Part shown: in pieces, positions 22,555 to 64,000 of the stretch
How the letters are laid out: every line of letters begins with the position of its first letter
Position numbering within the stretch: position 1 is the first letter of the stretch
Source: Acuticoccus yangtzensis
Lineage (GTDB): Bacteria; Pseudomonadota; Alphaproteobacteria; Rhizobiales; Amorphaceae
Assembly (NCBI RefSeq): GCF_001927245.1
Contig: NZ_MJUX01000002.1
Location: forward strand, 496,001 to 560,000
Direction: 5' to 3'
Length of the DNA: 64,000 nt
Made by a program: the position numbers and the translations under genes
Notes under the pieces: model-generated
What the model saw: only the letters and a program-made list of their open reading frames with translations
Told to the model about the DNA's origin: nothing
Database searches by the model: none

Positions 22555-22725
22555 CCCCCTCCGTGCTTGAACCTGAGAGCTTCACCCTGCCGAAGCGGGG
22601 CTTTCTCCTACGGTGGGCCTTGCGGCCACTTTCCGGAGTGTTGAGGCGACGCCGGTCCTGGGACCTGAGAGTTTCCGGGGCGGTTGCTCCTTCGGCGGCG
22701 GGTTGCCCCGCCTTCTCCCGGCGTC
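22555..22725 (-). ncRNA. Tandem glycine riboswitch (gcvT type) in the dadA leader
   Basis: Read on the minus strand, two successive glycine aptamers are visible. Aptamer 1 (22725-22647) is closed by GACGCCGG/CCGGCGTC and contains GCCGAAGGAGCAACCGC and AACTCTCAGG. Aptamer 2 (about 22638-22555) is closed by CTCCG/CGGAG and contains a GGCC-GCAA-GGCC arm, CCGTAGGAGAAAGCCCC, AAGCTCTCAGGTTCAAG and GGAGGGGG. About 8-9 nt link them. The layout matches the cooperative tandem class in alphaproteobacteria. The expression platform is the roughly 40 nt to the ATG. No clear terminator is seen there, so control may be translational. Confidence 0.9.
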
Positions 22726-22740
22726 GTCTTGTATGGCCGC

Positions 22741-61375: not shown

Positions 61376-61557
61376 GTGCTCCCGACTGGCGGGCCATTTT
61401 GACGGCGCAGGGGATCGACCCCGCCGTCATCGACCAGGCCGAGGCGACCGCGGCGGGGATGGCGGAACTCGCCGCCTCCATGCCGCACGACCCGACGACT
61501 CCCGTCGTGACGGCTGACCTCGTCACCCTCCTGATGCAACGGCGAGACGACACGTGA
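61372..61557 (+). CDS. Small AtzG/GatC-like protein preceding an amidase
   Basis: A 61-residue helical protein starting [20 protein letters not shown], with an amphipathic segment QAEATAAGMAELAASM and a Pro-containing C-terminal arm. It overlaps the ATPase gene by 4 nt (ATGA) and the amidase by 4 nt, so it is translated with both. Its size, helix-then-arm layout and place match AtzG (DUF4089), the small subunit that wraps 1-carboxybiuret hydrolase AtzE and resembles GatC. Sequence identity cannot be judged by eye, so this is a structural and positional inference. Confidence 0.6.
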   Translation: MSAPDWRAILTAQGIDPAVIDQAEATAAGMAELAASMPHDPTTPVVTADLVTLLMQRRDDT

Positions 61558-62960
61558 GCGAGACCATCGGCGCCTCCCTGGAGGCCATTCTGGACGCCGT
61601 CGCGACGCGCAGTGTGTCTGCCGCCGAGCTGGTGGAGACCCACCTTGCGGCACTGGCGCGGATCTCGGCGCTGAACGCGGTGGCGCGGCTGGAGCCCGGT
61701 TTCGCACGCGAAACGGCGGCGGCGCTGGACGCGCGCATCGCCGCCGGTGAGCCGGTGGGCATGCTGGCGGGTGCGCCGCTCGCCCACAAGGACCTCTACG
61801 ACCGTGCGGGCTGGCTCTCCGAGGCCGGCTCGAAGATCGCCAAGGGCCGCATCGCTCCGGCGACGGCGCACACCGTCGCCAAGCTCGACGCGGCGGATGC
61901 GCTGGACCTCGGCCGCCTCAACACGGTGGAGTTCGCGCTGGGGGCGGAGGGCCGCAACATCCACACCGGCCCGCCGCGCAATCCGTGGAACCCGGGGTAT
62001 GCGACCGGCGGCTCGTCCAGCGGCTCCGGTGTGGCGGTGGCGACAGGTGCGGTGCCCGCGGCGCTGGGGTCCGATACGGGCGGCTCCATCCGTCTGCCGG
62101 CGGCCGCGTGCGGTCTCGTGGGGCTGAAGGCGACGGCGGGGCGTATCGGCCGCTCCGGCGTGTTCCCGCTGTCGGGCACGCTCGACACGGCGGGCGCGCT
62201 GTGCCGCACGGTGCGCGACTCGGCGCTGATGCTGTCGGCGCTGGCGGGTCCGGACCCGGCCGACCCGCAGTCGGTCGACATGCCCTACCCCGACCCGCTC
62301 CGCGGCATCGAGGACGGCTACGCGGGGCTGAAATTCGGCATCGCGCGGCCCTATTTCTTCGACCCGGTGACGGCGCCCGTGGGCGATGCCTTGGAGGCGA
62401 CCTTCGCGGCGATGGCGGCGGACGGTGCGTCACTCGCCGAGGTGGCGATCCCCGGCATCGAGCTCGCCAACCGTCTCAACATGATCATCATCGGCTCGGA
62501 GGCGGCCGGCCAGCACCGCGACTGGCTGCGGGAGCGTGCGGCGGACTACGGCCCCGAGACCTTCCAGCGGCTGACGGCGGGTCTCCTGGTGCCGGCTAAC
62601 GCCTATCTGAAGGCGCTGACGCACCGGCGCGCGCTGCTGACGGCGGCGCTGGACGGCCCCTTCGCCGAGGTGGATGTGATCATGACGCCGGCGTGGCCGA
62701 TGGAGGTTCCCGAGATCGTGCCGGACGGCGATCCCAACTTCGCGGCCAAGACGCTGGACACGGGCCACAGCTCGCGTCCGTTCAACTATCTCGGCCTGCC
62801 GGCGATCGTGGTTCCTGTGGGTCTCGACACGCACGGCGTCCCTGTCGCGGTGCAGCTCGTCGGCCGCCCCTACGCCGAGCGCACGTTGCTGCGCGCCGCC
62901 CGCGCCGTGGAGCGCACGCTGGCCTTCAACGAAAGCCACAGCCCGCCGCACACGGCCTGA
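61554..62960 (+). CDS. Amidase signature-family hydrolase
   Basis: Ser-cisSer-Lys amidase of 468 residues. The catalytic residues are K79 (APLAHKDLY), the cis-serine in GGSSSGSG (about S155) and the nucleophile S178 in GSDTGGSIRLP. The C-terminal segment LGLPAIVVPVGLDTHGVPVAVQLVG is typical. It resembles GatA/AtzE-like amidases, and the preceding small gene fits a GatC-like partner. The operon with a dipeptide-type ABC importer suggests it hydrolyses the imported amide. Substrate unknown. Confidence 0.93.
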   Translation: MSETIGASLEAILDAVATRSVSAAELVETHLAALARISALNAVARLEPGFARETAAALDARIAAGEPVGMLAGAPLAHKDLYDRAGWLSEAGSKIAKGRIAPATAHTVAKLDAADALDLGRLNTVEFALGAEGRNIHTGPPRNPWNPGYATGGSSSGSGVAVATGAVPAALGSDTGGSIRLPAAACGLVGLKATAGRIGRSGVFPLSGTLDTAGALCRTVRDSALMLSALAGPDPADPQSVDMPYPDPLRGIEDGYAGLKFGIARPYFFDPVTAPVGDALEATFAAMAADGASLAEVAIPGIELANRLNMIIIGSEAAGQHRDWLRERAADYGPETFQRLTAGLLVPANAYLKALTHRRALLTAALDGPFAEVDVIMTPAWPMEVPEIVPDGDPNFAAKTLDTGHSSRPFNYLGLPAIVVPVGLDTHGVPVAVQLVGRPYAERTLLRAARAVERTLAFNESHSPPHTA

Positions 62961-63004
62961 CCGCGTTCGGGTCCCGCGAAAGCCTCACGCATCGCGGGCC
63001 CCCT

Positions 63005-63160
63005 CTGCCTGATCGCTGGAGCCGCCGTCACGCAAATTCTGGGGCCGGGCCGTGGTGCGCCGTCAAGGAGCCGGAGGCCGGCTTTAGCCGCTTGTCCTTG
63101 ACGGTGTGCCGCGGCTCGGCCACGGGATGCAGCGTGATGGCGGCTCCAGTGATCAGGCGG
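63005..63160 (+). repeat. 156-nt long imperfect inverted repeat forming an extended plus-strand hairpin
   Basis: Outer arms 63005-63033 and 63132-63160 pair over 29 positions; inner arms 63043-63069 and 63095-63121 pair over 27, separated by an internal loop of 9 and 10 nt. The apex can form CGGC-TTTA-GCCG. By hand count eight pairs are G-U wobbles when read as plus-strand RNA, and no pair is a mismatch. The element is noncoding and lies downstream of the amidase gene. Candidate roles are an mRNA 3' structure, a small RNA or an extragenic palindrome. Confidence 0.85.
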
Positions 63161-63174
63161 CGCCCCTGATCGCT

Positions 63175-63235
63175 AGAACTGCGCTGTTGCGCAGTTCTGT
63201 TCCTCGCGGCCAAAGTCCGCAACAGCGGACTTTGG
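63175..63235. repeat. Two perfect hairpins with complementary loops
   Basis: Hairpin A (63175-63198) is AGAACTGCGC-TGTT-GCGCAGTTCT. Hairpin B (63210-63235) is CCAAAGTCCGC-AACA-GCGGACTTTGG. The loops TGTT and AACA are complementary, and with flanking pairs CGCTGTTGCG and CGCAACAGCG are exact reverse complements, so loop-loop pairing or an alternative long-range helix is possible. The preceding CCTGATCGCT at 63165 repeats the start of the long hairpin. Confidence 0.85.
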
Positions 63236-63257
63236 TGAGCCCGAGCCCGCCGGAGGC

Positions 63258-63285
63258 AAAACGGCGCCCCCTGTCGAGGGCGCCG
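63258..63285 (-). terminator. Rho-independent terminator of the dimethylformamidase-like gene
   Basis: On the minus strand CGGCGCCC and GGGCGCCG form an 8-bp stem with an 8-nt loop, followed by TTTT, directly after the stop codon. Confidence 0.85.
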
Positions 63286-63292
63286 CGCAGTC

Positions 63293-64000
63293 TCACGCAG
63301 GCATCGCGAACGGCGCCGGGTCGATGAACCGGCGGATGACGTTGGCGATCATGCGGGTGGTCGCAGGGTCGCCGCCGGTTTGGGGCAGGCTGCCGCAGAA
63401 GGTGATGGACCCGGTGGCGAAGACGGCGCCACCCTTGGGCGTCTCGAAGAAGACGATTTCGGCGCGAACGAGGTCGGGCGCGGGTTCGCGCGGCACGGTG
63501 GTGAGGTGGGTCAGCATCTCCTCGTGCACCACGATGAACTTTTCCGAATGGCCGAAGGACCGCGCCAGGATCAACGTATGGGCGGGCGTGCCGAGGCGGA
63601 TGTCGGCCCGGTCGAGCTCGAAGCCCGCGGCGCCACCGCCGGAGAGGCCGGCATCGCCGATCACCTCGTCCTCGATCCCCTCGAAGATCCAGGCGGCGCG
63701 GGGATCTTTCGCGGCGGGCAGGATGCGGTAGGGCGCACCGTCCAGCGGCCCCTGGGACGAGAAGCCGACACCGGCGAGCGCCTGGGGCGGACGGCCTGAG
63801 CGGCGCCAGAGCCCGCCATAGGCACCGTCGAAGGCGTTGAAGTACTCGCCGGGCTGGGCGTCCCACGCGCGGATGCCGCCTTCGCCGCGGCGGATCTCGA
63901 TCGCCTCGGGCACCTCGGGATGACGCGCGACGCGCCAGTAGAATCCGTTTCCGCCGAGATACATGAACCGGCCGCCCTGGTTGCGGTAGGCGAGCAGCGC
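63293..64000 (-). CDS. N,N-dimethylformamidase large-subunit-like protein, 5' part outside the window
   Basis: The last 235 codons of a gene that enters from the right edge. The frame is open to the window end: AYRNQGGRFMYLGGNGFYWRV continues upstream of the first ATG at 63964, so that ATG is internal. GGNGFYWRVARHPEVPEAIEIRRGEGG (in parts), GGLWRRSGRPPQALAGVGF and FFETPKGGAVFATGSITFCGSLP are typical of the C-terminal domain of the dimethylformamidase beta subunit family, which hydrolyses formamides. Its convergence on an amidase and an amide-type ABC operon fits amide catabolism. The active-site part is not visible. Confidence 0.85.
   Translation of the reverse strand, partial: ALLAYRNQGGRFMYLGGNGFYWRVARHPEVPEAIEIRRGEGGIRAWDAQPGEYFNAFDGAYGGLWRRSGRPPQALAGVGFSSQGPLDGAPYRILPAAKDPRAAWIFEGIEDEVIGDAGLSGGGAAGFELDRADIRLGTPAHTLILARSFGHSEKFIVVHEEMLTHLTTVPREPAPDLVRAEIVFFETPKGGAVFATGSITFCGSLPQTGGDPATTRMIANVIRRFIDPAPFAMPA

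Follow-up and report, generated by a model that had tools for sequence, protein, structure and literature searches.

A dispersed family of long intergenic hairpins in a few alphaproteobacteria, with covariation, a plus-strand G-U bias and a third 12-mer copy that can pair at the stem base

Results

An intergenic element between two convergent genes

The window analysed here, a stretch of 64,000 nucleotides from the genome of Acuticoccus yangtzensis, ends on a pair of convergent genes, and the gap between them holds an element that spans about 62976–63257 and is broken by a nested two-hairpin insert. The genes and the parts of the element are listed below by their positions in the window, with the evidence for each in brackets.

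61554–62960, plus strand: left convergent neighbour, an amidase gene (PF01425; gene calls, domain match)
62976–63006, plus strand: 5' block, GCGAAAGCCTCACGCA... (alignments; kept in many, not all, copies)
63007–63033, plus strand: arm 1, at the base of the long hairpin (fold, alignment)
63036–63069, plus strand: inner variable stem, 5' strand (compensatory changes between subfamilies)
63070–63078, plus strand: tip mini-hairpin 1, GCCGNAGGC (three pairs invariant in 33 copies)
63079–63090, plus strand: tip mini-hairpin 2, CGGCTTTAGCCG (alignment, covariation)
63095–63128, plus strand: inner variable stem, 3' strand (fold, alignment)
63132–63158, plus strand: arm 2 (fold, alignment, third-copy test)
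63165–63174, plus strand: third 12-mer copy, CCTGATCGCT (alignment)
63175–63233, no strand assigned: nested 59-nt two-hairpin insert (fold, alignment)
63236–63257, plus strand: conserved 3' tail, TGAG-CCCGAGCCCGCCGGAGGC (alignment, motif matches)
63293–63964, minus strand: right convergent neighbour, a gene with a DMF-ase beta C-terminal domain (PF20254), its frame open past the end of the window

Across the family the order of the parts is 5' block, arm 1, variable inner stem, conserved two-hairpin tip, arm 2, third 12-mer and tail. Arm 1, for which the family-wide sequence is GCCTGATCGYYGGAGCCGCCGTCGCG, carries the first (CCTGATCGCTGG) of three covarying copies of a 12-mer. The copy in arm 2 (63146–63157) can take as its partner either arm 1 or, where the insert is absent, the third copy, the final GG of which is shifted here to 63234–63235 by the nested insert. 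In the second tip mini-hairpin a G-C pair has been swapped to C-G, with pairing preserved, in 4 of 33 copies. The tip as a whole has a T-like form, which may resemble the T tip of the AAV ITR or integron attC sites. The tail has the family form TGRG-NCCCGAGCCCGCCGGAGGC, and its 14-nt core (reverse strand GCCTCCGGCGGGCT) has 21 matches in the own genome, of which 20 belong to complete or partial copies; since only one match, in a stretch resembling an ABC transporter gene by eye, falls outside them, the tail was rejected as a general 3'-UTR motif. Folding of the full-length consensus gave no clear outer helix.

Fold of the hairpin

The original prediction placed a 156-nt hairpin at 63005–63160, and folding of the plus strand confirmed it: the minimum free energy is -135.6 kcal/mol (z = -14.6), a value reached by none of 200 shuffled sequences (mean -72.8, sd 4.3). 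The helix is as had been described; the loop is not plain, the tip being formed by the two mini-hairpins, and the element reaches past this interval on both sides. The minus strand also folds, more weakly (-103.2 kcal/mol, z = -9.8; 0/200 shuffles as low). G-U pairs number 11 among the 68 pairs of the plus-strand fold and 1 among the 56 pairs of the minus-strand fold. The eight non-Watson-Crick pairs originally counted were therefore too few. An arm-to-arm alignment in which G-U and A-C are treated alike gives 9 G-U for this copy; the idea that every imperfection is a G-U pair came close, the same alignment containing one A-C and two transversions. As anticipated, the element matches no RNA family in Rfam: no model scored above its gathering threshold there, and the eight sub-threshold matches included four to microRNA models. 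Elsewhere in the window, a glycine riboswitch (RF00504, 61.1 bits) is found at 22643–22730 on the minus strand.

A family of dispersed copies

BLAST of 332 bases around the hairpin against the genome of A. yangtzensis (5,043,263 bases in 29 contigs) retrieved dispersed copies on both strands. A covariance model, R1, built on 33 copies, found 25 strong copies (120–168 bits) and five weaker places (41–80 bits on the better strand) in this genome. The 25 strong copies rule out an RNA unique to the amidase operon; the element does lie 3' of the amidase gene, as predicted, and is a copy of a dispersed, apparently mobile repeat. Read by eye, the five weaker places and two from the congener G001 share a similar anatomy with other arms and another tip, and look like a second subfamily.

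The congener G003 contains 19 strong copies. Ten G003 copies (L157–L161, contig C12) crowd a single 110-kb contig, possibly a plasmid or a recent import, of the 7.8-Mb genome, and by eye they look nearly identical. When these ten were compared with two copies from elsewhere in G003, common edges were found, one some 34 nt upstream of the point where arm 1 starts and the other about 196 nt downstream of it, with the 5' block inside the shared unit and flanks that, judged by eye, are unrelated. Shared edges with unrelated sequence beyond them indicate a repeat unit of about 230 bp. The hairpin in the window is one copy of this non-coding, intergenic family, present in a few alphaproteobacteria. 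A search of titles and abstract openings, with most subscription journals outside its scope, found no name for the family.

In the family-level search, 7 of 10 genomes matched R1, all of them of the host genus; G002 had one weak partial match and G006 none. Exact patterns further identified Mameliella sediminis, Mameliella sp. CS4, Parvularcula lutaonensis and one alphaproteobacterial MAG, and R1 gave 8, 20 and 1 matches in the first three, respectively, a few of these being the opposite strand of one place, or partial. Wider samples gave 6 positives, in 1 of 122 genera, among 297 genomes sampled from the order, 1 among 385 of the class, namely the own genome, and 2 among 149 in a Mameliella-centred family sample, one being the centre genome; in all samples of more than 40 genomes the filters were strict and few candidates were scored per genome, so absences there weigh little. 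The plasmid search returned no match for the window or for one Mameliella copy, the phage search none for the window and the IMG/VR pattern search none. The third-copy motif occurred in 29 of 385 genomes, and 25 loci were then folded: one proved to be a copy of the own genome, with an upstream fold of -142 kcal/mol, and the remaining 24, with energies of -5 to -97 kcal/mol, look like chance matches, so that a wider spread on the basis of this motif was rejected. Two copies have unusual forms: L010 has its 3' half tandemly repeated after the tail, and L227 is a partial copy combining a left-block-like stretch with the 3' half, without the tip.

Covariation and strand bias

Bacteria often carry small palindromic repeats, for which it can seldom be said which strand matters or whether selection acts on the fold. 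Here, dozens of diverged copies with strand-specific compensatory evolution and an exclusive second pairing make the choice between a DNA palindrome and a folded strand testable. The main alignment (A1) comprised 33 of 38 aligned copies, without L015, L039, L046, L049 and L021, the last excluded because an insert interrupts its arm 1. In A1, 96.9% of cells are paired and 27 of 56 pairs vary on both sides, so that the covariation proposed as a check is indeed present among the copies. Covariation scores 0.357 in A1 and 0.145 (sd 0.007) in shuffled alignments, none of 500 being as high, and structures slid along the alignment leave 30–46% of cells paired; the structure was drawn from the same alignment, and the shuffles ignore relatedness.

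In a symmetric alignment of the arms, G-U outnumbers A-C by 319 to 63 over 61 copies (own genome 191:31 in 23 copies, genus 58:11 in 14, Mameliella 70:21 in 24; the own-genome copies L021 and C26:172658 are omitted from this and from the context counts below). Copy by copy, G-U exceeds A-C in 57 of the 61, equals it in four and falls below it in none. Changes private to single copies among the 33 run in the same direction, with 29 from Watson-Crick to G-U and 3 from Watson-Crick to A-C, beside 36 from one Watson-Crick pair to another, 15 broken pairs, 27 from G-U to Watson-Crick and 7 from G-U to a broken pair; the structure used in this test permits G-U, and the cells are not independent events. 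In the 18 copies with a left gene directed away from the element the ratio is 99:14, compared with 220:49 in the other 43 (Fisher p = 0.18). Since the bias is equally strong in both settings, neither readthrough from the left gene nor a position at the 3' end of its mRNA explains it.

Sequence changes across the family keep one strand foldable, as judged from the alignments. Selection for pairing on the plus strand, beyond the upkeep of a mere DNA palindrome, is well supported by the covariation, the overall ratio and the private changes. This strand would be active either as RNA or as single-stranded DNA, and either would leave the same bias; the predicted selection on a plus-strand structure stands, with RNA and folded single-stranded DNA both as candidates.

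A third 12-mer copy downstream of the hairpin

A new feature is the third stem-base 12-mer, which tracks arm 2, the 3' arm, and can pair with it across a short loop, mostly of 4–8 nt. Over 67 copies the cells between the third copy and arm 2 comprise 598 Watson-Crick, 148 G-U, 5 A-C and 53 others. In L001 and L002 the nested insert misplaces the third copy in this count; without these two, which were also left out of the shuffle test, the 65 remaining copies give 587, 145, 5 and 43, respectively. Type II copies (L187–L193) enter the third-copy counts only, six of the seven being used, with L191 omitted because its model strand folds worse than the opposite strand. Position 10, a nearly invariant T in the third copy, accounts for 55 of the 145 G-U cells, and the other 90 are spread over ten positions, A-C occurring at four; these cells, too, are not independent events. 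In the 65 copies, 732 of 780 cells pair with the arm 2 of the same copy, compared with 710.9 (sd 3.0) after swaps within groups, and none of 2000 swaps did as well. Among 23 copies picked by hand, 20 have a weaker duplex of third copy and arm 2 than of arm 1 and arm 2, two have duplexes of equal strength and one has a stronger third-copy duplex; on the opposite strand the third-copy duplex was weaker still in all 23.

These data indicate that the plus strand allows competition between arm 1 and the third copy for pairing with arm 2. To judge by the sequences, the base of the stem can be closed in two mutually exclusive ways. A direct repeat serving DNA binding alone would not account for the excess of G-U at the third copy.

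Sites without the element and shared sites

Flanks of eight loci, out of 12 prepared, were searched in eight genomes of the genus sample, including the own genome. In four cases (L001, L002, L008 and L012) the two flanks are close neighbours in a congener; the other four gave no clear flank pair. Both flanks of L008 are present in G004, with poor alignment. The remaining three gene pairs occur without the element, L001 and L012 in both G003 and G004 and L002 in G004, and the matched flanks are there separated by about 44–132 bp, compared with 282–349 bp in the host. These congener gaps contain no hairpin of the element's kind. The L012 site in G003 (L153, around 426, minus strand) has a lone third-copy-like GCCTGTTCCCTGGTGA, which is perhaps the scar left by loss of the hairpin between two direct repeats, arm 1 and the third copy, in a single case.

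Target-site duplications and terminal inverted repeats mark classical MITEs. No target-site duplication was seen by eye in the alignments of empty sites, the flanks of which are too diverged for a decision. An outer inverted repeat of 8–10 nt is present in a few copies (e.g. L002 and L020) and is inconsistent over 36 copies, for which neither consistent terminal repeats nor single-base edges could be fixed. The Y1 transposase (PF01797), the one transposase family searched for, was found in none of 11 genomes, with 5 of 14 control genomes positive.

The two Mameliella species have copies in the same four gene pairs (L101/L118, L104/L109, L106/L117 and L107/L112), which points to retention of sites, and so to a function in cis, or to insertion hot spots. 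Copies in the same gap are 75–78% alike. Of 12 within-species pairs formed from eight copies, four are 94–97% and eight 67–76% alike. The high likeness within species suggests either that some of the copies arose by recent copying or conversion inside one species or that the sites are hot spots, and it makes the shared pairs weaker as proof of selection in place. That four gaps are shared by the two species, yet some copies within a species are far more alike than those in one gap, is a testable puzzle for which conversion, turnover and hot spots are candidate solutions.

Gene context of the copies

Convergent-gene gaps hold 35 of the 58 copies that have both neighbours called, and the right neighbour has its 3' end towards the element in 50 of 59, often within tens of bases; gene calls were GC3-based and uncurated, and in 4 of the 61 copies (L013, L120, L121 and L125) the caller also placed an ORF over the element. 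Background convergence was 57 of 335 junctions in 25 regions around own-genome copies, a count that takes in the element junctions; the window gave 11 of 51 and the G003 contig 14 of 70. The excess has a probability of about 1e-11 (35/57 at p = 0.2). Among the ten copies on the G003 contig, five are convergent and nine have the right gene facing in. Between 62900 and 63400, no intrinsic terminator (a G+C hairpin with a T run) and, in a scan for the sigma-70 consensus, no promoter-like site were found. GC skew in the orientation of the element was positive for 17, negative for 7 and undetermined for 1 of 25 copies; the excess (17 of 24 usable copies) is too weak to argue for a replication-coupled step.

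Interpretation

We think it somewhat probable that the copies form a non-autonomous mobile palindrome family, whose folded plus single strand, with its base exchange, would be recognised in trans, and which survives in convergent gaps. The plus strand folds into the long hairpin with its two-hairpin tip, and the downstream third 12-mer can displace arm 1 from arm 2, making the base bistable. Folded in this way, and with the base exchange, the single strand, either an RNA intermediate or single-stranded DNA, would be recognised by a trans-acting enzyme during copying or movement of the element. Copies would survive mainly behind stop codons in convergent gaps, the places where harm is smallest, and might in addition influence the 3' ends of mRNAs. 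Dispersal may alternatively have proceeded through duplication and gene conversion. It is a tentative and rather doubtful proposal that the intermediate of transposition or retrotransposition is itself the folded plus strand with three-strand exchange, in which arm 1 and the third copy vie for arm 2, the bistable base acting as a recognition or cleavage switch; were it true, this would be a new kind of mobile element, and with an RNA intermediate it would amount to a bacterial counterpart of SINEs.

A real, if minority, chance belongs to a 3'-UTR element acting in cis, an RNA hairpin that ends, insulates or stabilises the transcripts of convergent genes or is a target of RNase III, as proposed for NEMIS, with the third copy as an RNA switch. 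The excess of convergent gaps and of right genes facing the element over the background would fit such a role, as would the four gene pairs occupied with the fold kept in both Mameliella species and the preference for G-U among private changes. However, the plus-strand bias is independent of the direction of the left gene, the commonest near gene is the right one, which would transcribe the minus strand, no terminator-like T run or sigma-70 promoter was found in the interval 62900–63400, and congeners have no copy at three of the gene pairs occupied in the host.

Multicopy small RNAs acting in trans from their own promoter, the copies being redundant genes, would explain the strong structure and a plus-strand bias that is independent of the neighbours, but the lack of a sigma-70-like promoter site in 62900–63400 and the uneven presence among congeners (G006 and G002 in particular) make them quite improbable. 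The least probable account is a DNA palindrome or cruciform bound by protein as a duplex: both strands can fold, and correction of the palindrome during replication would keep the arms alike and could yield two-sided changes without selection for pairing, but A-C and G-U should then be equally frequent on the plus strand, whereas the overall ratio favours G-U and no single copy leans towards A-C, and the differences between the third copy and arm 1 mostly keep the pairing with arm 2 through G-U.

Relation to known repeats

The mobile family favoured above has several counterparts, compared here from excerpts of the published descriptions. Among them are YPAL/RU-2, the 168-bp Yersinia palindromic sequence, the 127-bp ERIC/RU-1 and NEMIS/Correia, the last two also long stem-loops (PMC2229807). 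On our best reading the element may work like YPAL, ERIC and NEMIS, to which we liken it by description. With YPAL it shares a long intergenic palindrome that is not A+T rich, inner inverted repeats and many copies, and with YPAL/RU-2-like elements the occurrence of filled and empty sites in relatives (here L001, L002 and L012, in G003 and/or G004). With ERIC and NEMIS/Correia it shares long stem-loops scattered between genes (PMC2229807). Unlike YPAL, it is about 230 bp long, with a two-hairpin tip and a third pairing copy, and we found no counterpart to the target duplications of 3–26 bp reported for YPAL (PMC2229807). ERIC and NEMIS are described as having TA ends and terminal repeats (PMC2229807), whereas TA ends were unseen in our alignments and terminal repeats are inconsistent. 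An orientation-dependent conformational change of the RNA has been proposed for ERIC (PMC2229807). Relative to the excerpted descriptions of YPAL, ERIC and NEMIS, the T-like tip, the compensatory turnover of the inner stem, the strand-specific wobble bias and the bistable base are found only here.

In Bradyrhizobium, Br-REP1 has a 20-nt consensus and about 200 sites, and Br-REP2 a consensus of about 40 nt and at least 50 sites; a long covarying stem such as that reported here is absent from their descriptions as excerpted (PMC5082802). REP/RAYT systems likewise consist of extragenic palindromes in many copies, but REPs measure 20–40 bp (PMC3733652), and assignment to them was rejected on the unit of about 230 bp and on the lack of the Y1 transposase in the 11 genomes.

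The nested insert and a second repeat family

The insert that interrupts the third copy in the window is shared, at the identical place, by copy L002, and an insert of this type also lies in arm 1 of L021. Related hairpins make up a second family of dispersed repeats, read at six other places of the own genome (L221–L226), with hairpins around CGCTGTTGCG and, mostly, CGGCAACAGCCG, often flanked on both sides by more hairpins. The L002 gap in G003 (L156, G003:C8:71800–72900) measures 467 bp and contains a different long hairpin and further hairpins, none of them with the type I or type II motifs searched for; by eye, they resemble the second family, which suggests that such gaps attract or tolerate hairpins generally. 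The hairpin elements in this one convergent gap thus differ between the two species.
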